Below, piece by piece: positions 508-31,682 of a DNA stretch of 64,000 nucleotides. The notes below the pieces were generated by a model. It searched no databases and was not told the DNA's origin. It saw only the letters and a program-made list of their open reading frames with translations. This DNA comes from Haematococcus lacustris (lineage: Eukaryota > Chlorophyta > Chlorophyceae > Chlamydomonadales > Haematococcaceae). The position numbers and the translations under genes are program-made. Position 1 is the stretch's first letter; each line of letters begins with the position of its first letter. The stretch lies in NCBI GenBank assembly GCA_030144725.1, contig JASKMD010000030.1, positions 6,823,210 to 6,887,209 of the forward strand, read 5' to 3'.

Positions 508-6330
<5,823 letters not shown>

Positions 6331-15610: not shown

Positions 15611-17065
15611 GCCGGCAGGTGCGCGTCGGGTCTCGCATGTCTGGCCTCTTGTATCTGCCTGTTTTCCTCGTCGTATTCGTTGCGCTTTGCCATGTAGTCC
15701 AGGTGTGCCGTGATGAGCGGCGCCGGTTCGAGAGTGGGGTGCCAGTGTACTCGTATGAGGTCCGAGTGCGCTGACTGGCGCATGGTTGTCTTGAAGTCAT
15801 TGCTGCCGAACTTGCATATAGGGCACAGCCAGTATCCTGGTTCCTTGTGTCCTGACAGGTGGGCTTCCTCTAGGCAGGCTGGGTGGTAGGCCCTCTTGCA
15901 GTTGTGGCACGTTGGGCTGTCTCCTCTTGGTAGCCAGCACAGCTCACAAGTGCATACGTCCTTAGCCTCTTCCCTGCTGATGGTCTCTATGTGTGTGGGT
16001 GTATAGCCTTCTTCTGCACATAGTGGTAATGCCCATCTATCTATGACTGTGGGCTTCCAATGCACCTTGTAGTAGTTTTCCTTGTTGATGCCGTCCCATT
16101 GCCAGCCATCTATGCTGGTTATGGCCTCTTGGTGGCCGTACATGGCCCCTAGTATGCAGCCTAGGTTCTTGGGTTTACATCGGCAGGCTTTATCCACCTT
16201 CCAGCTGGAGAGTCCTGGGAGGTCAAGGCCTACTATGCGCACTATATCCTGCGGGATAGTTTGGGTCTGCCTGCCCTCATTGTTCCGTTTCGTGCCCGCC
16301 TTGGGTGGCGTGGGCTTCGTTGGGGCCGATTGTGTTGCTCGTTGCTCTCGTTTCAGCAGTCGTGAGCTCGTCCTAGTGGCGTCATGGGCTGCGGGTGCCG
16401 CTGCGGCCCGGTCCGCCGTTGCTGGTTGCGTTGCGTGCATGGCCGCATACGCTTTCATATCCATATAGCGAGTTCTGGTGTCTGGCACTGCGGGTGTGGG
16501 CGCAAGTTCCGTGAGGCCCGCGGCCCATGTAGTGATTTTGCGTTGGTCGGGCGGGAGGTCGAGTGATGTGTTGCGACTGTCTCGGATGGCACGCGTGGCG
16601 GTCGCGTCTGGGCATGAGGGTTGGGCCGCCATGGCCGCAAGTTTGTTGAGGGCGATGATGTGCTTCTGCTTGACCTTTTTTCCGTACTTCGATGTGAGCA
16701 TGCTACCGGTGATAATGTGTGTGTTGTCCTTGCAGCTGAGTTCAGAGGCGTGCTGGATGCCTAGGCTTTTGAGGCAGGTGATGCTGGCGCTGACGACATC
16801 GTGTGCTTGAGAGCTGCTGGCCTGTGTGATGAGGCGGCCGAGTGTTTGGCATTCCTCATGATAGAGAGGTAGCCCCTCTTCCGTGGCCGATAGCCCGGAT
16901 ATATAGGCATAGACTAGCTGCCGTGCCCTAAGGGTGTGATGAAGGAGGGTGAGCATGCGGTGTCCTTGTGTGCTAGCCTGGGTATTGAGCCATGTGATTT
17001 GTTTGTGCAGCATGCTCCTCGAGATGTGGGCGTGTGCCACATCTGTGGACTGGAGGCTGTGTGTG
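15611..17065 (-). mobile_element. Non-LTR retrotransposon (LINE) copy A, 3' part with PHD-like finger
   Basis: One open minus-strand frame continues the coding region of LINE copy B. After the post-RT region it reads a Cys-rich finger at about 15815-15960: C-x-C-x2-C, then CHNCKRAYHPAC, then WLCPIC. This spacing is that of a PHD (C4HC3-type) finger, which usually reads histone H3 tails. Two similar short motifs, KVHWKPT (about 16060) and RVHWHPT (about 15735), flank the finger. No restriction-like endonuclease or RNase H motif is visible before the gap. Bases 16440-17065 are nearly identical to 24024-24649 of copy B (one C/T difference seen). The upstream end is cut by the LTR element at 17064. 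Confidence 0.8.
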
Positions 17066-17497
17066 TAACGGAGCTGAGACCAGGGAGCCTGTGAGGGCGG
17101 GAGAACGAGACAGGACCCGGGGTCAGATAGAGTTCTGAGCCAAGGTTACAACATAGCAGAGATGACCAACAGAGCACGGCTTACCTGTGAGGGCGGGAGA
17201 ACGAGACAGGACCCGGGGTCAGATAGAGTTCTGAGCCAAGGTACCTGTCTCTGCCCTCACAGAGCCTTAAGTACTCAAAACCATTCACATTCTTAGTCAT
17301 CCACGTGTAAAGGGAAAAGGTGTACGTAAACTGTGAACTTCTGTGCTCGGTGCATCCGCCTAGGTTCGGAGCACCTTGCACAGAGAACAACAGAAGCATC
17401 CACTGTAAGAAAAGAACAAGTACCCAGTTCGCTAAAGATCAGACATGCAAGTCAGTTTAAAAGATGCAAGCCGCCCATGCTGCGCATGTCCACTACA
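17064..17497 (-). repeat. 3' LTR with an internal 96-bp insertion
   Basis: It is 434 bases long, begins TGTAACGGAG and ends CCACTACA. Relative to the other LTR it carries an extra 96 bases (about 17146-17241) that repeat the segment CCTGTGAGGGCGGGAGAACG onward. The rest looks identical by eye. Confidence 0.9.
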
Positions 17498-17522
17498 TTC
17501 ACCCCCCCTGGAAAAAAGATGT
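17498..17522 (-). promoter_or_regulatory. Polypurine tract next to the 3' LTR
   Basis: The minus strand reads TTTTTTCCAGGGGGGGTGAA directly before the LTR start, the position and composition expected for the plus-strand primer of an LTR element. Confidence 0.7.
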
Positions 17523-17538
17523 TTAGCCTCTAAACATG

Positions 17539-20500
17539 CTACCTGCGCTTCTTAGGAGCCTTAGCTTGCTTGCACTGATGACAGAGCCAGGCACCACGAG
17601 GCACAGAACGAAGTGGGGGTGACAGGCACGTGATGTGAAAACCCTTGTCGCATTGATCACAAAGCAACATCGGAGGCCGCGGTGAACGGCTGGCGCAGAC
17701 TTGGCAGGCAGGGTCGTCGTCAACCGGGGCATGATGGCGGGCGGTGTAATCCCGGATTAAGGCGGCGACCGCGTCCTGCTGCGCGAGTGCTGGGCCCCAC
17801 TCCCAGGAGTTGAAGGAGTCGTCGTAGCCAGCCCACTTGATGAGGTACTGAAAGGCGTGCTGCGCGTCGTTCCAGCGACGGCCCAAGATGGCTTCCACCG
17901 TGAAGTAAGCCTCGCCGTCGATGATCACGGGCGAAGGCTGAAGCTCCACGGCGCGCTCAGGGAAAGAGGAGGAGGAAAGGTAGGGCCGTAGGCGGCTGAT
18001 GTGGAATGTGGGGAGGATACGCATGGAGGGAGGGAGGTCGAGCTTGTAGGAGACCGGGGAGTGCTTGGCCAGGACCTTGAAGGGCCCCACAAAGCGAGGT
18101 TGGAGCTTGGCGCTGTTGACAGCAGTCTGCAGGTTCAGGTTGGCACAGCTGAGCAGCACCAGATCACCGACCTCAAACTCCTCATGGCGGCGGTGCTGAT
18201 CAGCATGCAGCTTCTGGGTGTCAATGGAGCGCTGCAAGGCTGAGCGGGCGGCGGTAAGGTTGTTGCGCATGGAGGTGACGAAGTCCTCAGCTGCCTGGCT
18301 GGGCACAAGGGTGGGAGGGGGGAGCATAAGGGCAGAGGGTGTGGTGGGGTGTTGGCCGTAGTTGAGGTAGAAGGGGGTGAAGCCGGTGCCAGCGTGCTCA
18401 GAGCTGTTGTAGGCAAACTCCACGGCCGCAAGGTGCTGGTCCCAATCAGACTTGTGGTCGTTGACGTAGGGCCTCAGCATGTCCTCCACTGTGCGGTTGG
18501 CACGTTCTGTCTGGCCGTCGGTCTGGGGGTGGTAGGCAGAGGAGAGGAGGAGCCGGGTGCCGGTGAGGTGGAAGAGGGAGGTCCAGAAGTCAGAAGTGAA
18601 CTTGGGGTCACGGTCAGAGATGATGGCCTCCGGCAGGCCGTGGTGCTTGAAGATGTGGTCAAAGAAGAGGCGGGCGGTGTCGTGAGCGGTGGCGGTGGTG
18701 GTGGTGGGGATGAGGTGGATCATCTTGCTGAGCTTGTCGACGACGGTGAAGATCATGGTGTGGCCGCGGGGAGTGGCTGGAAGGGGCCCAATGAAGTCCA
18801 TGCTGACCTGCTGCCAATTGCGGGAGGGGATGGGGAGGGGCTGTAGCAGGCCAGGGGGCAGCTGGTTGGTGGCCTTGTTGCGCTGGCACTTGTCGCACGT
18901 GCGCACGTACTCCTGGACGGTCTTGTGCATCTGCGGCCAATAGAAGTGACGTTGCAGCCGCTCCAGAGTCTTGGCACGCCCTAGGTGGGCAGCGGTGTGG
19001 GCGTCATGAGCTTCATGCAACAGCTGGGCGCGGAGAGGGGAGGAGGGGATGTAGAGGCGGGGAGGGGTGGAGGTGGTGTAGAGGCGACCTTCAATGACCT
19101 GCAGGTGGGTAGGGCTGGAGGGTGAAGGAGGGGAGAGGGCCTGGGACAGGGCTGCTTGGTAGGCCGGGTCGTCGGGCGCATGGCGGTCAAAGGTGGAGAA
19201 GAAGGAGGGGTCAGGGTCAACGATGGAGAGGGCGGTGAGTTGGTGGTCAGGGCGACGGGAGAGGGCGTCCGGCACGGTGTGGTGCTTGCCAGCCTTGTGC
19301 ACAAAGGTGATGTCAAACTCCGCAAGGCGCTGGGTCCACCGCATCTGGCGCCCGGTGAGGTTGGACTGGGTGAGCACATGGGTGGTGGCGCTGTTGTCAG
19401 TTTCCACAATGAAGGGACGACCCAGTAGGTAGTGGCGCCAGGTGGTGAGGGCATGGAGCACAGCCAGGAGCTCACGCTCATGGGCTGGGTAGTTGACCTG
19501 AGCCGGGTTGAGCTTGCGGCTCTCGTAGGCCACCACGTACTCGGCGCCGGAGGAGTCCTGTTGGGTAAGCACGGCACCAATGGCAAAGAGGGAGGCGTCA
19601 GTCTTGACGGTGAAGGGGAGGGAGAAGTCAGGGGGGCGCACGACGGGGGAGCTGGCCATGGCTGCCTTGATGTCGGCAGAGGCACGCTGCTCAGCCTCGC
19701 CCCAACGCCATGGCTGCTCGTCACGCAGCAGGTCGGTGAGAGGGAGAACACGGTGGGCATGGTGGTGTAGGAGACGCCGGTAGTAGTTGGCGGTGCCGAG
19801 GAACGACCGTAGCTGGTGCTTGTCCTGTGGGGCAGGCCAGTCCAGCACAGCCTTGACCTTGGTGGGGTCTGGCTGGATGCCGGCGGCGGAGACGACGTGG
19901 CCCAGGAAGTCCACGGTGTCCAGCCAGAATGCGCACTTGGCCAGGTTAGCGCACAGTTGGTGCTTCCGCAAGAGGGAGAGGGTAAGGTGGAGGTGGCGCT
20001 CGTGGTCAGCAGCTGACTTGGAGAAGACAAGGATGTCATCTAGGTAGACAAGCACGAAGTCATCTAGGTGGGGCTTGAAGACATCGTTCATGAGCTGCTG
20101 GAAGGTGGCTGGGGCATTGCAGAGGCCAAAGGGGAGGACAGTGAACTCATAGTGCCCGTACCGGGTGCGGAAGGCGGTCTTGGGGATGTCGTCCTCAGCC
20201 ACCCTGATCTGGTGGTACCCAGACCGGAGGTCGATCTTGGAAAAGACCTGGGCACCTGACAGCTGGTCCAGCAGATCATCGATGCGGGGGAGGGGGGTAA
20301 CGGTTCTTGAGGGTTTGCTGGTTGAGGGCACGGAAGTCCACACAGAGGCGCAGGCTGCCGTCCTTCTTGCGCACGAACAACACAGGGGCAGCAAAGGGGG
20401 AGGTGGATGGCCGGATGAAACCCTTGGCCAGGAGGTCGTCCAACTGCTTCTTCAGCTGGTCCAGCTCTGGCTGCGACATGCGGTAGATGGGCCGGGGGGA

Positions 20501-21976
20501 GGGGGCAGGGCCGGTGAGATGGATGGTGTGGTCCACGGAGCGGCGGGGCATGTCCTGGACTGCAGGCAGCTCCTTGGGAAAGACAGAGGGGTACTGCTGC
20601 ACCAGTGCTGCCGCCTTGGGGTGGAGAGGGGGTGGAGTAGGGGCAGGGGTGGAGGAAGAGGGTGAGGAAGAGGGGTTGGGTTGCTGGGTGAGCAGGGCCA
20701 TGAAGACCTCATCATGCCGCGCTGCCCGGCGGAAGCGTGGCGCCGACAGCAGGTTCAGCTGATCCGCTTGGAGTGGGGTGGGTGGGGGTGGGGTCAGAGT
20801 GTGGGTGGACCCGGCGTGATCCAGGCGTACGACGTTGTTGATCCAGTCCACACACGGGTTCTTGGCTGCCAGCCACGGCTTGCCGAGGACGATGTCAAAG
20901 GAAGGGTTGGGGATGTTAGCCATGGAGAGCTGCAAGCGATCGCGGTAGGTACCCATGCGGATGGAGCACGGTGGGAGGGTGTAGGTGGGTAGGGTAGTGC
21001 TCTTGGGGCCTGGGAGGAGGAGGCGACGGGGGGAGAGGGTGGTTGCCAAGTGCAGCCCATTGCGCATGAGGTACTGCTGGCTGACGATGTTGCCGGTGGC
21101 GCCGCTGTCCACCATGAACCTGGCTGGGTGACCAGCAAAGGTGCCATGGAGGATGATCAGCTCAGAAGAGGGGCTGCTGCCACTGGCAGACAGGGCAGTG
21201 AGCACGATGGGGGAGGGCGCAGCAGCGGGGGAAGGGGTGGGAGTGGGAGTGGGAGTGGGCGTGGGCGGGGAGGTGTGGGAAGGACAAGGAGCAGGAGGGG
21301 GACACGGAGGGGCAAGGGGAGGAGGTAACGACCGGGGAGCGAGAGAATCGGCCGGCGGCTGGTCCTGAACAGCCAGCACGGCAAAGGAGTTGACATGGAG
21401 GAAGGCAGGTGCATCAGCATTGGCACGCTGCAACACAGCTGGGCGGGCTGTCCGGCCAGGCTGGGGAGGGCGAGGAGGGCTGCCACCTAGAGCTGCAGGT
21501 AGGGGCAGGGAGAACCGCACGACCTTACGAGGTCGTCCCGGTGGCGTGGAGCCAGCCACAGAAGGCTGCTTCAGAATGCTGCCAGCAGGTCTAACATGCT
21601 GCAGGGGTAAGGGCATGAGTCTGCCAACCTGCAGGGAGGGCCGGCCAGCAGTGTCCGCCTTACCAGTGTACGGCTGGCAGGTGGAATGAAGACCAGGGTA
21701 GGAGGGTGTAGGGGCAGGGAGGAGGAAGTAAGGCGCGCGGTGGGGACGAGCGCACCGGGGAGGACAAGGAGAGGAGGTGGAAAAGCAGAGAGGCTGGGAG
21801 GGGGTGGTGGGATGGGGTGGGAGGTGGGAGGGGGTGGTGGGAGGGGGTGGTGGGAGGGTCCGGAAGGCGACGTCTAGCGGCGGTCCCCCTTCCGTGGGCC
21901 GCTGCTGACGTTTGGGCGGGGAGGGCGGATGGGGCAGTCCTTCATGGTGTGCCCCGCCTTGCGGCAGTAGAAGCAC
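17539..21976 (-). CDS. pol: Pol polyprotein: protease, RT, RNase H, integrase, chromodomain, PHD finger
   Basis: The frame overlaps gag by 103 bases and lies in the -1 frame. Aspartic protease: [12 protein letters not shown] at about 21100. [22 protein letters not shown] at about 20370, [13 protein letters not shown], and YLDD at about 20040. RNase [21 protein letters not shown] at about 19590 and [10 protein letters not shown]. Integrase: [17 protein letters not shown] and CDKCQ zinc region at about 18890-18990, the first catalytic Asp in MDFIGPLP at about 18795, IISDRDPKF at about 18600, and [11 protein letters not shown]. Chromodomain: [18 protein letters not shown] at about 17820. A PHD finger ([25 protein letters not shown]) occupies about 17560-17700, before a basic tail. 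A single extra base in the C6-T-C5 run (20286-20297) splits pol into two frames, which may be an inactivating indel or a sequencing error. Confidence 0.93.
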
Positions 21977-22803
21977 GCCTTGCTGTCCCGCAAAGCCGCA
22001 CGCTGAGCATCGGAGAGACGAGTGCCCCGGCTGCGGCTTGGGCTGGTGTGGAGCATGGCGTCCAGCTCCATGGGCACCGCGGCAGTCTCAGGGCGGGGAG
22101 GGCGGGGAGCGGAGGGAGGGCGATAGGAGGAGCGGGAGGTTGAGGTGGAATAGGAGATGGCGTCCACCCGATCCGCGATGGTGGAGGCTTCGGAGAAGGA
22201 GGTTGGCTCGCGCAGCTCCAGCTCACGCCGCACTGAGGGCTTGAGGCCCCGGATGAACCGGTCGAGCTGTTCGGCGGGCGAGAGGTCCGTGACCTCCAGG
22301 CAGAGCGCTGTGAACTCGCCAAGGTACCGCCGCACGGAGCTCGTTTGGGTGAGAGCTGCCAAGCGGTCCCTTGCATGGCGCAGCCGGTTGACAGGCGCGA
22401 ACTGCCGCTCGAACGCAGCGACAAAGCACGTCCAGGAGGTGAAAGAGCTGACGCTGCTGCGGTACCACAGGAGAGCATGGCCGGAGAGGAGGGTGGCGAC
22501 GTAGACGATCCGTTGGGCGTCCGTCAGCTCGGAGATTGTGAAAAAGAGATCCACTGCGAATAGCCAAGCCGCCACGTCCGTGGTACGGCTGCCAGAGAAA
22601 GTGGCGGGTGGATTGGTACGCGGCATACGCTGCTGAGGGGCAGGAGCGGGAGTAGGAGGAGGAGCAGGAGCAGGAGCAGGCGCGGGCGCCGCCGGAGTGG
22701 TTTGCTGCAGGGACAGTTGAGCGAGCTGTTGTTCCAGCCGCTGGATTGTGGCCTGCTGCTCCGAAAATACGCGTTGCATCTGAGCGATCTCTTCCGCGTT
22801 CAT
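21874..22803 (-). CDS. gag: Gag capsid-nucleocapsid protein
   Basis: 309 residues starting at ATG 22801-22803. The N terminus is a glutamine-rich coiled-coil ([20 protein letters not shown]) followed by an Ala/Pro linker. Next comes a retrotransposon gag domain (about residues 65-210: [20 protein letters not shown], later [15 protein letters not shown] and [18 protein letters not shown]), and a CCHC zinc knuckle near the C terminus ([14 protein letters not shown]). It packages the element RNA. The stop TAG 21874-21876 overlaps the hairpin of the frameshift signal. Confidence 0.93.
21876..21916 (-). promoter_or_regulatory. -1 ribosomal frameshift signal at gag-pol
   Basis: On the minus strand the heptamer C-CCA-AAC sits in the gag frame at 21916-21910 and fits the X-XXY-YYZ rule. 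After a six-base spacer (GTCAGC) a hairpin AGCGGC/GCCGCT (21903-21898 with 21881-21876) follows. Pol is open in exactly the -1 frame across this point. Confidence 0.7.
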
Positions 22804-22881
22804 GGCGGCGCGGGATTAGCGGAGAGAATGCGGAGTGGGAGAGAGGAGCGGTGGAGTGGGAGAGACGAGGGAAGAGCACTG

Positions 22882-22906
22882 CGGTTCCCGAGAGAGAAGG
22901 CACCAA
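22882..22906 (-). promoter_or_regulatory. Primer-binding site next to the 5' LTR
   Basis: Just inside the LTR the minus strand reads TTGGTGCCTTCTCTCTCGGG. The TGG-start fits pairing to a tRNA 3' end (GGCACCA). The particular tRNA is not identified. Confidence 0.6.
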
Positions 22907-23244
22907 TGTAACGGAGCTGAGACCAGGGAGCCTGTGAGGGCGGGAGAACGAGACAGGACCCGGGGTCAGATAGAGTTCTGAGCCAAGGTACCTGTCTCTG
23001 CCCTCACAGAGCCTTAAGTACTCAAAACCATTCACATTCTTAGTCATCCACGTGTAAAGGGAAAAGGTGTACGTAAACTGTGAACTTCTGTGCTCGGTGC
23101 ATCCGCCTAGGTTCGGAGCACCTTGCACAGAGAACAACAGAAGCATCCACTGTAAGAAAAGAACAAGTACCCAGTTCGCTAAAGATCAGACATGCAAGTC
23201 AGTTTAAAAGATGCAAGCCGCCCATGCTGCGCATGTCCACTACA
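22907..23244 (-). repeat. 5' LTR of the chromovirus
   Basis: 338 bases, beginning TGTAACGGAG and ending CCACTACA, identical in plan to the left LTR without its 96-base insertion. It should contain the element promoter. Confidence 0.9.
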
Positions 23245-24023
23245 CCCTTCATCATGCACCCCATGGTGGGGGTGCGGGCTCGGCACTTTATCACAGCCTG
23301 CCCCACTGGTAACGCTTTATCAAGTACAGCCAGCTGCAAAACAGCGGGTGGGAGTTTGCAAGCAGGGTAGAGACAGATGGGGTCAGCATCTCTGTGCACT
23401 TCGTGCGCAGCTAGGCAGTCAAGGAGGCAGTGGAGCTGGCAGTTATAGGGCGTCAGCTCACAGCCACCAGCGACTTCAACCCAGCCACCCACATAGCAGT
23501 TGGGGTGGACCCAGGCGTCACCCAAGCCATCAAGGCACCGCATGCACAGCGGGACCCAGCCACGGGCCAGGTGCTGAGGTTGTGGGAGAGGGAGCTGACC
23601 AAGGGGCAGCTGAAGCATGACAGCGGGCTGACCAAAGACAAGCGGGACACAACTCGTTGGTCAGCTGCCATCCAGCCACAGCTGCAACAGCTGGCACCAC
23701 CCTGGACAGCCTCCAGGCCCACATCCAGGCCCTCAGGGCCACCGGGGGCCTGCTGTGGGAGGAGTACCTCAAGCCACGCTGGCGCCGGCAGCGGTTGGGG
23801 CTGCACCATGCCCAGGAGCCCGTCAATGAGGGCTTCTACAAGAAGGTATGGCCTGATACCTGACCCTCACCCTCACCCTTCTGCCCTGACCGCCCGGACC
23901 TGACCTGGTACCTGACCTAGTACCTGACCTGACCTGACCTGACCTGCAGGTGGTGGATGAAGTGGGTGTTATGCCAGCACTATGCCCGGGAGAGGGGAGT
24001 GGCGGTGTGGGCGGGGAGGGGTG
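23245..24023 (+). pseudogene. Fanzor/TnpB-like nuclease, RuvC-I part, broken
   Basis: The plus strand encodes GWEFASRVETDGVSISVHF, then AVGVDPGVTQAIKAPHA with the RuvC-I Asp (about 23490-23540), then ERELTKGQLKHDSGLTKDKR, then in another frame LQAHIQALRATGGLLWEEYL and RRQRLGLHHAQEPVNEGFYK. It has in-frame stops TAA 23310-23312 and TAG 23412-23414 and a one-base frameshift near 23690. A short intron of CCTGACC repeats (about 23865-23945) ends in CTGCAG. The next exon (MKWVLCQHYARERGVAVW) matches the start of the RuvC-II exon at 12.5 kb. The homology ends abruptly at 24023, where LINE sequence starts. Confidence 0.7.
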
Positions 24024-27000
24024 TGGCCGCATACGCTTTCATATCCATATAGCGAGTTCTGGTGTCTGGCACTGCGGGTGTGGGCGCAAGTTCCGTGAGG
24101 CCCGCGGCCCATGTAGTGATTTTGCGTTGGTCGGGCGGGAGGTCGAGTGATGTGTTGCGACTGTCTCGGATGGCACGCGTGGCGGTCGCGTCTGGGCATG
24201 AGGGTTGGGCCGCCATGGCCGCAAGTTTGTTGAGGGCGATGATGTGCTTCTGCTTGACCTTTTTTCCGTACTTCGATGTGAGCATGTTACCGGTGATAAT
24301 GTGTGTGTTGTCCTTGCAGCTGAGTTCAGAGGCGTGCTGGATGCCTAGGCTTTTGAGGCAGGTGATGCTGGCGCTGACGACATCGTGTGCTTGAGAGCTG
24401 CTGGCCTGTGTGATGAGGCGGCCGAGTGTTTGGCATTCCTCATGATAGAGAGGTAGCCCCTCTTCCGTGGCCGATAGCCCGGATATATAGGCATAGACTA
24501 GCTGCCGTGCCCTAAGGGTGTGATGAAGGAGGGTGAGCATGCGGTGTCCTTGTGTGCTAGCCTGGGTATTGAGCCATGTGATTTGTTTGTGCAGCATGCT
24601 CCTCGAGATGTGGGCGTGTGCCACATCTGTGGACTGGAGGCTGTGTGTGAGGGCTGTCGTGTTGCGGGCGTGATATTCTTGGGCAGTGGAGCTAATGCCT
24701 ATGCCTAGTTTGTCAGCGTCTTCTCTGATGATGGCATTGGGCGTTCCCAGGGGGAGTCTGAGTTTGAGCTTCACGCATTGATTGATGGACCTGTCGTACA
24801 GCTCAAGGTCCCCTGGGGTGCAGGGCACGGCGCAGAAGCTGTAGGCTAGGCTGGGTATGATGGCCGTGCGGATGATGTGTATGGCCTGCCTAGCGCTAGC
24901 AAAGGAGCGTCTGAGTCTCTCGAGTTTTTGGCGGAGCTGGGTGATCATAGCGGTGTGTTGTGGTTTCCAGTCCAGCGTCATGGTGATGAGCACACCCAAG
25001 TAGGTGAAAGGTGAGGTCGGGCGGTGGTAGGTGACGGGTTTCCCTTGTAGGCTGACGGTTTGGAGTTGTTGGCGGGCCCGCTTGTCCGCTTCGGCCGCGT
25101 TGCTGCACATGCCAGTTTCGACCGAGTGGTGAAGCGCCGCTGTAGCGAGGGTTTTACTGTGTGAGATGATGAGGTGACCCCAGTCCGAGAAGGCTGAGAG
25201 TTTGTCCGCTTGGCATCGGAGGTTGCGAAGGGTGTTGCAGAGTATGGCTATGTCGTCAGCATAGTCGATGCTGCTGACGGTGGCGCGTTCCCCGCTGTCG
25301 GGCGTTGCTGATTTGAATTTATAGCCCCTCGCGCCCACTTGCAGCCATCGCAGGAGGGGTTCAATGTAAATGAGGAATAGGAAGGGCGAGAGAGAGTCGC
25401 CTTGTATGGTGCCCCGGTTGACGGGTACCGGGTCAGTATGGCCGTACGGGGTTTTAAAGCGCGTTGTAGCGCCCGTGTATAGGTCCTTTACAGCGTCAGT
25501 CGCGTCCGTGGGGAAGCCTAGGTCATGCATGATCCAGAGTAGTTTGTCTTGGCACGTGGTGTTGAACGCACTGGTGAAGTCGACCAGGAGTGCGTAGATA
25601 TCTGCCTTGGCCAGTTTAGCATCCTCAAGGGCCATGACAAGCATCTGCAGCTGTTGTGTGGTGTTCCTGTGGGAGCGGAACCCAGCCTGGTTCTTGCTGA
25701 GCATCCCATTAGCTTCAGCATACTCAGCCAACGTCTTGGTAATGAGGCTGGTCCACAGCTTGTAAACGGTGTTGGCTAGGCCCACAGGTCTGTAGGAGTT
25801 GAGGTCCGTTTCTTGCCCCTTGTCCTTGTAGAGGAGGCATGTGTCACTAGTTTTCCATGCTGTGGGTGTGCAGCCTGTTGCCCACATGATGATGAAGAGC
25901 TGGTGGATGGTTTCCCGCATCTCCCATGGCAGCATCATGATGATCTCGTTCTCCACCCCGTCTGGTCCCGGGGCCTTGCCTCCTGACAGCCTGCTGATGC
26001 ATTCCTGGAAGCCTGCCTTGTCCATGATGGCTGTGTGCAGCCAGTGTATGTTTTGGCATGCGTGTAATGCGAAGGCGTCGTCGGCTTTGGCGCGAGCCCA
26101 CGGGTAGTTTCGTGTCTGTGTGTTAGTGTAGTGGCCAGTCTTGGGGGTCGGGGCCGCCAGCTTCTGCCCATATGCGGCAGTGATTATCCGGTTGAGGTCG
26201 GCAGGGGCTGTGCATATGGTTTTGGTGTCAGGGTCAGCTAGCGCCTGTAGGCCTTTGTGGTCGGTGCGGGACGGGCGCAGGATACGTTTGTTAGCCTTCT
26301 TGGGCTGGGTGCTGATCAGTTGTTGCATTCTGACGCGAGCTTGTGCGATGGCGAGTGCGGAGTCATCGTCGTCTAGTTGGTGGATTTGGTCGCGGTACGT
26401 ATTGGTCAGTTGGGCGAGCGCGGCCTGCACGTGATTTTCGGTTGGGTCTTCACCCTGTCGCGCTTGCACCGCGTCCCTGATCTCTTCGTTTATCGCATCT
26501 GTCCCTAGAATGAGTTCGTCGATTGTCGGATGCACGTTGGTTTGCTTAAAGAGGGAGTTAGCCTTCCGGCTGAGGTCTCTAGCGGTCTTAAGCTTTCTGC
26601 CCAGTGCCAGTCTAATCCTGCACATGGTCCTGCGTTGGTAGTGCTGGCCTCCCCTTGTGAGGGTCTTAGTGTTGCATGTCTTAATAGCTGCCGTCCTGCA
26701 GGTTTGTAGGAGGTTTGTGAGCATGGTGGCTGCGGTGTCTACGGCTTCCCTGGCCGGGCGTCCTGCCACTGATGTCAGACGCTGTGGTTGTTGAGGGTTG
26801 GTCTTGCCAAGTGTAGCCAGGTGGTGGGTAGCCTCTGTGTATATGGGGGCTAAGAAGGCTGTCAGTTCTGCATGCAATTGTGGGACGCCTGAGCTGGGTT
26901 GTTGCACTGCCAGGCGGTAGGCTTCCCTGTCCTTGTTGGTAATGGGGGTGGTGAGGATGGTGTGGCTGTGCTTCGGTGGTTTGTGTGGGGCTGCCAGGTC

Positions 27001-30000
27001 TATGCCCAGGCGGGCTGTATTCAATGTGGCGGTGAGTGGCCTGTGGTCGCTCAGATAGACGTTGGTATCGACGTGCGTGCGGTGCTCAGGGCCGTGTCTT
27101 GCGTCGCGTGTTAGAATAGCGTCGATGCGGCTGTTGCAGTGCGGTTGCTGGTAGGTCCAGGCCCGGTCGCCGGGGTCAGCTTCCTTCAGGTGCATTTCTG
27201 CGGCGAACCCCCTCATCATGCTGTCTTGTGTGTATTCGGTGTGCTCGGAACGATCCTCTGTTTTCATCGTGGCGTTGATATCTCCCGCCAGGATGAGTGA
27301 GCCGGGCAGGTGCCCAGTGGCTGTTCGTATGTGTTCTTGCATTTTTTCTCGCATTAACAGCGCGTCCCCGTTGTTTCCCGACGGCCAATACGTGGCGATG
27401 ATGGTGAGCTGTTCGCACTGGTGTTGGTTGAGGGTCAGGATGACGCATCGTGCGTTCACCTCAGCGTCGATGCTCGGTGGAAGCATAGTGGTTTTCATTT
27501 GGATGGCTAAGTTGTGTTTGATGCCTATTAGTACGTCACTGTGGCCTCTGTGTCGGTGTGTCGTATAGTCTGGCATGACTCTCCTCAGCCAGCCAGAGCC
27601 TGGATTGTTGCTCTTGGGCTGGGTCATGGTTTCAGTTAGGATCAGGATGTCCGGGCTGTGTTGATGCACAAGGTTCAGGACGTCGTTCCTGGACCTATGG
27701 AGGCTTCTGACGTTCAGGGTCGTTAGTGTGATATGCTGTCGATTGTGTGTTGGTTGTGGCTGCCGGGTTGGCAAGGTGCTGTGTTGTGGGTGTGGTCCTG
27801 GGTGTTCAGGTAGGTTATCGGTGGGGGGTGGCGGTATTGTGGGGTTGGCGGCGGGGGGTGGGGTGGGGGTTGTGTTTAGGTATCTGTACATCAGGGTCTG
27901 CGTGTGCGGGTCCTTGGTTTGCGCTCTTGGCTTGGTCCGTCTTTTGTCTACGATGGTGCCCGATGTCGTGGGCCGTTTACTGCTGCTTGACCGGTCTTGT
28001 AGAGTGGGAAGAGTGACTGTGGGGGCGACCCGGCGCAGTCGCGGCCGGGCCTGCTTGTCTGTCGGGTGGGTGTCTGCTGTGGCTGTTAGTATGCGCTTGT
28101 AACTCGCTGGTTGTGCAGTGGGTAGCGGCCGGTCTGTTCGGGGGGTGTGCGCGGGTTGTGTGCCCAGGTCTTGGGTAGTAAGGTCGATGTGGGTGGTACG
28201 TAGATGTTGTTCCAGCTGCTCCGTTGTGGCGCGCCTTGTAGGGTCAGCTAGCCAGCATAGTGGGTGGATGAGGTTGGTATCAGCCGCGTCGCCCTTTTTA
28301 ATTTGAACGAGTGTACCCTTCAGCTGAAGCCAGTCTTCCGGGGTGTCCAATCGGCATGGGCGGCCTTGTTCCGAGTCCAACCAGTGCCATGCGTTGTTAA
28401 TGTGGCGGATGGTGGTAGCGTGATTGTGAGTAATGAGGACGGCGGCTGTGTTAGTGTAGCTGTCCGTCTTGCCCGTGAGCGTGGTGAGGAGCTCTGGTGT
28501 GATGTTATTGTTGGTGGTGGTTGTGGCGGTAGGGCATAGGTGGAGGTCCTTGTGGTGGTGGTATAGGTAGTGGTTTATGGTGGAGATGGTGAAGTTGCCA
28601 GATTCCTCGTAGATGTGTGGGAGGCTGCTACGTAGTGGTATTATCCTGTGCTCCTGCCGTGCCTGGTTGGCTAGGCCTTGGATGTGTGTGTCGAGTGATT
28701 TGCAGTGGGTGATGACGTCTTCGGGCCAGATCATGGGTTTCCCTATGGCCATGTTGATGGCGTGCACAAGACAACATTGTTTGTATTGCCTTTCCATGTA
28801 GCATTGGGACGGGTCCTGGTTGTCTTCCTTGTGGCTGATAATGTGACTAATACCCTGTCGGGTGGTGGCCATTGTTTGGGCTGGTGTGGCTGCCGGGTCG
28901 GGTGCAATGACGAACACCTCGTGGAAGTGGTTCGTGTAAGAATGCGACAGCTCACAGATGGCTATAGCTGATTTACTGGAGCTGTCGGAATCTAGGAGCT
29001 TCCACTGCCCACCCAACTTCCTGAGCGCCATGCTGTGGCCGTTCGTTTTGCACAAGAAGTTGAGTGTGGCATACTCTATCGCTATGGTGTCGAGGTTGTC
29101 GTCGTTCCAGTCGTCTGTGTTGCGTAGTTGAGCGACACTCTTAATAGTGAGGCCGTATTTGTATCGAAGGTATAGGTGAATGACCTCGTCGCTGAAGGCG
29201 CCCCCGTCCCCTCGTGCGGTATGCCACGCCTTTTTGTCGCCTTCGTCTTGTAGGGTTGTATCCCAGGTTGTCCAAAAGTTATGCAGGTCCTCAGGCTTCA
29301 CCCATTCCTTTCCAGCTGCATTGTTGAGGGAGTGGGCCTGGCAGTTGCGATTCACCTGCGCTTCGAAAAACAAGGGGTTAGGGTTGACTTCTGGGTGATG
29401 CTCCTCATTGTGGGATGGGCCTGGGTTCGCTTCAATATCACCTCCTGCTAGCAACAACCAGCCTATATAGAGCAAGTAGATAGCACTGTAGCAGGGGGAC
29501 ATGACGCCAAGGCAATGGGCTAGCTTGGTTGATAGGGCTGGGATGCTCATGCGGGTAGGCAGATCAGGCATGCGGTTGATGCGCAGAATGTATAGTGTGT
29601 ACCGTTGCAAAGTCGTGTTGTATTGGTGAACTAGGATGCTGGTGCTTTCTGGGTTGGATGTATAGTGGCCATGCGACTGCCAGCTAGTGAGGGCTGTTGA
29701 CAGGTGCATCAAGGCAGTGTGACGTTCCACTGAGCCATCAAGGTAGAGGTACAGGGTGTAGGCAGATCCAACAGAGACCGCTCTCCATCTCCTGATTTTC
29801 TTAAGGTGTCGTCGGAGGCAAGCTCTAGATTGGGAAGGGGTAATAGCAGGGGGTGGGGGGGTGGGGGGGTAGCCCCTAATTAAAGCGATGCTGGCGATAG
29901 CAATGGCGATGTGTGCCATCCAGCTGAGTGTCTCGTGTCCGTAGTCATAGTTGGGCATGGTGCTAGTGTCTATAGTGTCGGCTGTCTGGGATTGTCGCGG

Positions 30001-30981
30001 GGTGCCTCCCCTAACTCGTTGGTGTAGTTGTCCATCCTCTGCCTTGTTGTTGTAGGCATGAGGGTACCTGATGCGGGGCAGCAGGCCAGCATGGGCAGCA
30101 TGCGTGGCTGCTCCTGGCAGCGTAGTGAGCTGAGTACACCGCTGCACACTCTCTGACTTGTTGTTGTAGGCATGGCGGTACCTGCTGCGGGGCAGAGCAC
30201 CAGCATGGGCAGCATGCATGGCTGCTCCTGGCAGCGTCATGGGCTGAGTACACCGCTGCACACTCTCTGACTTGTTGTAGTAGGCATGAGGGTACCTGAT
30301 GCGGGGCGGCAGGCCAGCATGGGCAGCATGCATGGCTGCTCCTGGCAGCGTCATGGGCTGAGTACACCGTTGCACACTCTCTGATCTGAAATTGTAGGCA
30401 TGAGGGTGCCTGATGCGGGGCAGCAGGCCAGCATGGGCAGCATGCGTGGCTGCTCCTGGCAGCGTGGTGGGCTGAACGCACCGCTGCACACTCTCAGACT
30501 TGTTGTTGTAGGCATGGCGGTACCTGCTGCGGGGCAGCAGGCCAGCATGGGCAGCATGCATGGCTGCTCCTGGCAGCGTCATGGGCTCAACCCACCCCTG
30601 CGCACTTTCTGACTTGTTGTTGTAGGCATGAGGGTACCTGTTGCGGGGCAGGAGGCCAGCATGGGCAGCATGCGTGGCTGCTCCTGGCAGCGTAGTGAGC
30701 TGAGTACACCGCTGCACACTCTCTGACTTGTTGTTGTAGGCATGGCGGTACCTGCTGCGGGGCAGAGCACCAGCGTGGGCAGGATGCATGGCTGCTCCTG
30801 GCAGCGTCATGGGCTGAGCACACCGCTGCACACTCCCTGACTTGTTGTTGTAGGCATGAGGGTACCTGTTGCGGGGCAGCAGGCCAGCATGGGTGGCGGC
30901 AATAACATGGGCTGGCCGGTGGTGGTGGGGCGGAGCGCCATGTACCATGTCGACCTGCATGTCAACATGGGCAGCTTGCAT
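24024..30981 (-). CDS. LINE copy B polyprotein: leader, 2A, two Josephin-like domains, APE endonuclease, RT
   Basis: One open minus-strand frame of over 2300 codons. Order: eight 38-residue repeats (30.96-30.05 kb), a hydrophobic leader, the 2A motif DIEANPGP, Josephin-like domain 1 (about 29400-28890), Josephin-like domain 2 (about 28860-28310), a linker, an APE-type endonuclease (TLNVRSLHRSRNDV at 27725, DILILTE, AGDIN at 27275, SRIDAIL at 27125, LSDHRPL at 27050), then reverse transcriptase (GGKAPGPDGVENE at 25960, SYRPVGLANTVYKLW, DFTSAFN, RGTIQGDSLSPFLF, YADD at 25254-25265). The frame leaves LINE sequence at 24024, where it fuses to the Fanzor scrap, so the C-terminal PHD region seen in copy A is missing. 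ATG 29957-29959 is an alternative start that leaves the repeats as 5' leader. A 3' truncation is unusual for a LINE. Confidence 0.88.
28310..28860 (-). other. Josephin-like cysteine protease domain 2 in the LINE polyprotein
   Basis: RQYKQCCLVHAINMAIGKP at about 28740-28795 has the Josephin pattern Q-x4-C-x2-H. A later block with His and NNAWHWLDSEQG (about 28365-28440) matches the His plus W-x-L-D-S end of that fold. Josephin domains cleave ubiquitin chains. Activity here is inferred. Confidence 0.65.
28890..29405 (-). other. Josephin-like cysteine protease domain 1 in the LINE polyprotein
   Basis: FFEAQVNRNCQAHSLNNAAG (about 29315-29375) carries Q-x4-C-x2-H-x2-NN, the Josephin active-site signature. 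GHSMALRKLGGQWKLLDSDS (about 28980-29040) matches the His-x-x-x-x-R-K-L-G-x-Q-W block of ataxin-3-type Josephins. The Asn of the triad appears substituted. It directly follows the 2A release point. Confidence 0.7.
29416..29445 (-). promoter_or_regulatory. 2A-like ribosome-skipping motif in the LINE ORF
   Basis: The minus strand encodes YIGWLLLAGGDIEANPGP. D-x-E-x-N-P-G-P preceded by a Leu-rich helix is the defining 2A pattern, which makes the ribosome skip the last Gly-Pro bond. It would release the hydrophobic leader from the protease/endonuclease/RT polyprotein. Confidence 0.85.
30052..30963 (-). repeat. Eight tandem 114-bp units, open in the LINE frame
   Basis: The marker GTAGGCATG recurs at 30052, 30166, 30280, 30394, 30508, 30622, 30736 and 30850, exactly 114 bases apart each time. 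Each unit encodes 38 residues such as RYPHAYNNKSESVQRC and TLPGAAMHAAHAG without a stop. They could be protein repeats or 5' promoter monomers that happen to be open. Confidence 0.95.
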
Positions 30982-31000
30982 TTGTGAACTGGCCGGCTGA

Positions 31001-31500
31001 NNNNNNNNNNNNNNNNNNNNNNNNNNNNNNNNNNNNNNNNNNNNNNNNNNNNNNNNNNNNNNNNNNNNNNNNNNNNNNNNNNNNNNNNNNNNNNNNNNNN
31101 NNNNNNNNNNNNNNNNNNNNNNNNNNNNNNNNNNNNNNNNNNNNNNNNNNNNNNNNNNNNNNNNNNNNNNNNNNNNNNNNNNNNNNNNNNNNNNNNNNNN
31201 NNNNNNNNNNNNNNNNNNNNNNNNNNNNNNNNNNNNNNNNNNNNNNNNNNNNNNNNNNNNNNNNNNNNNNNNNNNNNNNNNNNNNNNNNNNNNNNNNNNN
31301 NNNNNNNNNNNNNNNNNNNNNNNNNNNNNNNNNNNNNNNNNNNNNNNNNNNNNNNNNNNNNNNNNNNNNNNNNNNNNNNNNNNNNNNNNNNNNNNNNNNN
31401 NNNNNNNNNNNNNNNNNNNNNNNNNNNNNNNNNNNNNNNNNNNNNNNNNNNNNNNNNNNNNNNNNNNNNNNNNNNNNNNNNNNNNNNNNNNNNNNNNNNN
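31001..31500. other. Assembly gap (500 N)
   Basis: It hides the 5' end of LINE copy B and probably the start of the formin gene. Confidence 1.
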
Positions 31501-31682
31501 GCCACCTGCATTTCCAGGGCCGCTGAGCCCCTAGGCAGCAAAGCAACTGTTGCTGGCCTTGAGTGCCTGGACCAGCCTGTGTCCACGCTGCCAGGCATCA
31601 AGCAGCATGCTGGCTTGTCTCTCCCCCTCACCCGCACTGCCCCCCGCCCCCCTCACCCGCACTGCCCCCCACCCCCCTGCAG

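Follow-up and report, generated by a model that had tools for sequence, protein, structure and literature searches.

The stretch of Haematococcus lacustris DNA analysed here (64,000 nucleotides of contig JASKMD010000030.1, positions 6,823,210 to 6,887,209 of the forward strand; the whole stretch is called the window below) carries on its minus strand a copy of a long interspersed nuclear element (LINE), the reading frame of which encodes, at 28231-29418 and immediately after a 2A motif, two consecutive domains of the Josephin family. Domain 1 (D1) extends over 28855-29418, with its Gln at 29358 and its core, from this Gln to the LDS triplet, at 28987-29358, and domain 2 (D2) over 28231-28854, with the Gln at 28788 and the core at 28372-28788. 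The name of the host is borne by all 47 of the 47 proteins returned by the first protein search.

Two Josephin domains follow a 2A motif

A preliminary description of this sequence had noted two Q-x4-C-x2-H blocks after a 2A site, each followed by a His block and by Q/W-W-x-L-D-S, and had read them as the Josephin active-site pattern occurring twice. Both blocks were found, QVNRNCQAH from 29358 and QYKQCCLVH from 28788, behind the 2A motif DIEANPGP at 29416-29439, and so were the two His/Asp blocks, HSMALRKLGGQWKLLDS ending at 28987 and HATTIRHINNAWHWLDS ending at 28372, the first of which reads W-x2-L-D-S and departs in this detail from the pattern described. Scored alone, each domain exceeded the curated cut-off of 26 bits of the Pfam Josephin family (PF02099), with 29.7 bits for D1 and 43.7 bits for D2, and Josephin was the sole Pfam family to match either domain at E ≤ 1. 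A profile search of PDB sequences returned Josephin-2 (E 4.9e-9) and ataxin-3 (E 4.1e-7). The predicted model of the pair (pLDDT 83.7) was best matched by Josephin structures: each of the 12 Foldseek matches that reach E ≤ 0.001 is titled Josephin or JOS and two of these top 12, 3o65 and 6pgv, have bound ubiquitin, the identity to the solved Josephins in the fold comparison being only about 20%. Pfam, the PDB search and the predicted fold all agree with the active-site reading, neither block being assigned to another fold by profile, and we regard it as practically certain that D1-D2 is a Josephin-family pair, for which the model predicts the Josephin fold.

The topology is common to papain-fold families, and PeiR, staphopain, PCAT1 and UfSP proteases appear further down the fold list, as they might if the blocks had arisen by chance or belonged to a different papain-like fold, for example OTU or Ulp1. 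This explanation, to which we assign next to no probability, is refuted by the profile and fold results. When the 396 residues were shuffled 20,000 times, one Q-C-H...H...DS set was seen in a single shuffle and two sets in none, ruling out a chance motif, and in the six frames of the window the same pattern was found nowhere beyond the two Josephin blocks. An OTU identity and a Ulp1 identity (Peptidase_C48, PF02902) of the domains were each considered and rejected, as neither family gave a Pfam match at E ≤ 1 in D1 or D2.

Catalytic residues are kept and both domains are under selection

BLAST matched 77 sequences (47 proteins and 30 loci), of which the 56 that span the pair were aligned with the window and the 21 non-spanning ones were left out; in the resulting 57 rows, 54 of them unique, a locus and a protein may represent one genomic copy. 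The 2A motif, in the form D(V/I)ExNPGP, is present in 55 of the 57. Gln, Cys, His and Asp of D2 are invariant (57/57 rows), His and Asp of D1 are likewise found in every row, and the D1 Cys is found in 56, the remaining row being truncated at this residue. In each of the 53 unique rows with a D1 Cys, the D1 Gln lies at -5 or -7 (35 at -7 and not -5, 16 at -5 and not -7, 2 at both). Since the metagenomic relatives P0090, P0091 and P0100 also have their D1 Gln at -7, the longer loop may be ancestral. In a 20-row alignment extending to metagenomic relatives, Q211, C216, H333 and D348 are invariant.

Between the window and the copy L031 the NG86 ratio of nonsynonymous to synonymous substitution (dN/dS) was 0.09 for D1, 0.28 for D2, 0.32 for the linker that follows D2, 0.15 for the AP-endonuclease-like domain (APE) and 0.09 for the reverse transcriptase (RT), and between L034 and L002 it was 0.13 for D1, 0.13 for D2, 0.47 for the linker and 0.11 for the APE. 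Several distant comparisons were saturated and yielded no value; over the three close ones D1 remains at 0.09-0.13, and the linker is variable (0.32-0.48). The ratios indicate that purifying selection acts on both domains, the D2 value lying just slightly under that of the linker in the comparison of the window with L031.

These data also bear on whether D2 alone is an enzyme, with D1 a pseudo-enzyme for binding ubiquitin or the substrate. The Pfam score of D1 is lower than that of D2, its Gln is shifted in many rows, and the His three residues past its Cys is replaced by Tyr, Asp or Asn in several subfamilies, all of which would suit a D1 that has lost its activity. Yet Cys, His and Asp of D1 are invariant bar the one truncated row, a Gln stands at one of two positions wherever the Cys is present, and the domain is held at a low dN/dS. 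We therefore consider a pseudo-enzyme unlikely, though it deserves to be kept in mind.

The LINE copy of the window and its surroundings

The pair lies in a frame that is open on the minus strand from 23980 to 31530 (2516 codons) and spans a gap of 500 N at 31001-31500. The LINE copy itself, in its extent aligning with L031, covers 24024-30999; it is broken at 24024 and its 5' side is cut by the gap. Ahead of D1 the frame holds in-frame tandem repeats at 30037-30893 (7.5 units of 114 bp, or 38 amino acids (aa)) and a hydrophobic stretch with the 2A motif at 29416-29490 (YSAIYLLYIGWLLLAGGDIEANPGP). Behind D2 are the APE (PF03372, Pfam E 1.7e-11) at 27043-27720 and the RT (PF00078, E 3.5e-25) at 24991-25803, corresponding to residues 1061-1286 and 1700-1970 of the frame read from 30900. 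The pair is carried by a retrotransposon, as had been proposed.

A second minus-strand LINE fragment, at 15611-17065, represents the part that follows the RT in intact copies. Its 16440-17065 repeats 24024-24649, so that a 626-bp stretch occurs twice in the window at 99.84% identity, and between the two occurrences lies a gypsy-like long terminal repeat element with repeats near 17064-17483 and 22907-23230. A single clean 7.5-kb insertion interrupting the LINE was considered and dropped because of the duplicated stretch, on account of which the arrangement at 15611-24649 is either a duplication or an assembly join.

Intact copies and the order of domains

A first look at the 308-Mb assembly gave 799 Josephin candidates, the best 150 of which were scored and were all above the cut-off, and with D1-D2 DNA 40 places, the window included, were scored (585 candidates) at 91-100% identity. 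In one account (PMC7617258) H. lacustris is taken as diploid and an assembly of double size is suggested to contain two genome copies, so that the counts given here may be inflated by a factor of up to two. Between copies A (C127) and B (C83) the identity is 99.94% over 8198 bp and 99.87% over another 753 bp, with different 3' flanks, which suggests recent movement. Copy B (L036) is followed immediately by an open frame that by eye resembles gypsy pol, a possible nested insertion.

The frames of copies A and C comprise 3766 and 3784 codons. The element begins with a signal-peptide-like start (judged by eye in copies A and C), the 114-bp repeats, the hydrophobic stretch and 2A, D1, D2 and the linker, and continues with the APE, the RT, a PHD-like finger, a region that aligns with parts of relatives (in some of which PF12237 is found, see below), RNase H and a segment with CCHC and P-D...E-x-K. 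APE, RT and RNase H (60.1 bits) were recognized in intact relatives by Pfam, whereas the PHD-like finger scores under the Pfam cut-off. CCHC and P-D...E-x-K are invariant in 11 rows, and a profile of this segment finds R2 retrotransposon proteins (E 1.7e-5 and 3.4e-5), by which similarity we class it as a putative R2-like CCHC/restriction-like endonuclease (RLE). The 3' end consists of a short untranslated region and (CTT)n; a 3' stem-loop seen by eye was not borne out, the stretch folding no better than its shuffles (z -0.36 and -1.07). Different subfamilies share the 114-bp period of the in-frame repeats and differ in the repeat sequence (window 30037-30893, L031 1881-2969, L038:6356-7643), copy C having at least 11.3 units unlike the 7.5 of the window. 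Similar CTGCAGTGCATG/GCAGCAG minisatellite sequence borders copy C at either end (L038:5407-5707 and, beyond the (CTT)n tail, L037), so that the copy may sit inside a minisatellite array; exact k-mers revealed no target-site duplication around it.

A single very long frame that contains a protease and a variable linker would also be consistent with a polyprotein-processing function, in which the pair cuts the product of about 3,800 aa, for example in the low-complexity linker before the APE, and has no dealings with ubiquitin. However, separation is already supplied by the 2A, the PDB titles among the fold matches name ataxin-3 and Josephin-2 with ubiquitin, and the solved eukaryotic Josephins are deubiquitinases. 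In addition, the place of the pair can be taken by Ulp1, as in a relative (P0108, below), and Ulp1 and Josephin share a ubiquitin-like substrate. Polyprotein processing is thus, in our estimate, improbable.

Relatives and the protease slot

A search with the RT gave 252 matches, from the best 120 of which the set of relatives was drawn: 69 are Haematococcus and 51 are of metagenome, transcriptome or unnamed origin, with RTs 45-55% identical, and we infer that these 51 are algal. At least 300 residues precede the APE in 27 of them. Josephin profiles built from the Haematococcus rows (E-values for a set of 132 proteins, clear meaning E < 1e-5) matched 16 of the 27 clearly, in the same slot as the Haematococcus pair, 4 weakly and the other 7 not at all, and PF02099 was independently precomputed in 5 of the 51. 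Josephin pairs are found in P0090, P0091, P0100 and P0131, and a profile search for Josephins near Josephin length had a single match, P0133. In P0092, residues 630-905 hold a 2A motif, the truncated start of a Josephin, a second 2A motif and then a full Josephin.

In P0108, one of the 7 relatives that the Josephin profiles did not match, the slot is occupied, behind a 2A motif, by two Ulp1 stretches at residues about 180-780 (PF02902, 81.1 bits), which suggests that the purpose of the slot is removal of a ubiquitin-like tag. Of the other six, P0114 had a Ulp1 match under threshold (14.7 bits, cut-off 20.7). By Pfam, P0086 (OTU-like by eye) had no family, P0121 (Ulp1-like by eye) just one unrelated weak match and P0088 no credible protease match, and P0103 and P0112 had no match with motif patterns, the only test applied to them.

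Between PHD and RNase H, a PCIF1-like domain (PF12237, which we take to be a cap-methyltransferase family) is precomputed in 25 of the 51 relatives, and the Haematococcus region at residues about 2940-3230 of the L031/L035 frame aligns with 45 of the 51. Pfam did not detect PF12237 in the two pieces of Haematococcus sequence submitted to it, and in none of the 51 was an NPP[FYW] motif found close to an [FY]G in this region.

In the RT tree, Josephin bearers stand on either side of the midpoint, which serves drawing only, and three rows labelled Ulp1, two of them weak, require two state changes. P0108 pairs with the Josephin-bearing P0131 (support 94/93), and the rows with a D1/D2-type pair (6 Haematococcus, P0090, P0091 and P0100) fall within one 12-row group (98/96). 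In the domain tree, Haematococcus D1 groups with the first domains of P0090, P0091 and P0100 at a support that is suggestive only (84/78), and the P0131 pair is a separate duplication (99/91).

Within Haematococcus, the annotated proteins P0012 and P0014 share 88% in the pair and 87% in the RT, whereas P0014 and P0034 share 39% in the pair and 98% in the RT. Along contiguous DNA the identity of copies A and C is 41-46% in the pair and 32% in the linker; it is 80-92% over the greater part of the remainder, with a dip to 59-73% after the RT. The 5' module has either been swapped between lineages or evolves far faster than the rest, and the discordance of the protein pairs between protease pair and RT favours exchange. 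Tentatively, and with slightly less than even confidence, we envisage a clade of dual-endonuclease LINEs, probably green-algal, with a detagging slot between 2A and APE that accepts interchangeable cysteine proteases of the ubiquitin/SUMO class (Josephin, Josephin pair or Ulp1 pair, a tandem pair having arisen several times). With the 5' module exchanged within Haematococcus, such elements could be swapping whole protease cassettes in an arms race with the ubiquitin/SUMO control of the host.

Discussion

Based on our data we propose that tandem Josephin-family cysteine peptidases, placed behind a 2A within a Dualen-like LINE polyprotein, free the replicase or its ribonucleoprotein (RNP), or host proteins at the target site, of ubiquitin, an interpretation that we hold to be fairly probable. 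Ribosome skipping at the 2A would split off the N-terminal part with its signal-like start, 38-aa repeats and hydrophobic stretch, and the released replicase would start with Josephin-Josephin, followed by APE, RT, RNase H and RLE. With the chain released by the 2A immediately ahead of D1, the Josephin pair would lie at the very start of the replicase, a favourable position for removing ubiquitin. Josephins cleave behind ubiquitin, and judged by family D1 and D2 would each do so, removing ubiquitin or a similar tag from the element's own replicase or RNP, or from host proteins at the insertion site. The particle would thereby escape the proteasome, and that such escape is what the pair is for appears to us somewhat better than an even guess. 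As a speculation, the N-terminal Pro left by the 2A could itself mark the product for degradation, an effect that the pair would counteract. The findings suggest a retrotransposon that brings its own tool against the cell's ubiquitin tagging.

If the pair is active, the replicase of this LINE starts with two ataxin-3-like enzymes, and point mutants could tell whether ubiquitin-mediated turnover limits LINE particles. With a relative that has a Ulp1 pair in the slot, and with protease modules that are discordant with the RTs, the clade would be a natural experiment on the means that the host uses against LINEs.

The Josephin deubiquitinases ataxin-3, ataxin-3-like and Josephin-2 share with D1 and D2 the fold, the Gln-Cys-His-Asp pattern and the Pfam membership, and Josephin-2 also has, in the PDB-profile alignment, the LDS of the window domains. 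Unlike them, the domains described here stand in tandem inside a retrotransposon polyprotein, at the low identity given above, and the first often has its Gln at -7. Among the papers on Josephin that were listed, as judged by titles, abstract starts and term counts and with most subscription journals outside this scope, none was seen to link a Josephin domain to a transposable element.

Dualen, for which an OTU-like protease is reported, was reportedly described by Kojima and Fujiwara in 2005 as having a cysteine protease. The set of APE, RLE, RT and RNase H found in intact relatives of the window copy is, by published description, that of the Dualen/RandI LINEs, Dualen being described with APE plus RLE and Dualen/RandI with RNase H (PMC4640811). 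RandI is further described with non-A 3' repeats (PMC3747384), a trait resembled here by (CTT)n. The Josephin pair and the 2A distinguish the present element, which by its domain set appears Dualen-like and which we do not name Dualen. In NeSL/Utopia LINEs, described with a Ulp1-like protease, and in Ginger1 transposons, described with OTU/Ulp1 (PMC4640811, PMC2836005), a ubiquitin- or SUMO-class cysteine protease is likewise joined to a transposition protein; the proteases belong to other families, and the portions of these descriptions available to us mention neither Josephin nor a pair. According to one report, 2A sequences are carried by APE-type LINEs and sea-urchin NLR proteins (PMC4981915), with the same D(V/I)ExNPGP motif. 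The 2A described here lies behind a hydrophobic stretch and, in contrast to those, directly precedes a protease pair, so that the downstream product would start with Pro and then Josephin. Elements with SUMO-, OTU- or ubiquitin-class proteases are already known, and the present one is of interest for its Josephin pair, for the conservation of this pair and for a protease slot the content of which appears exchangeable.
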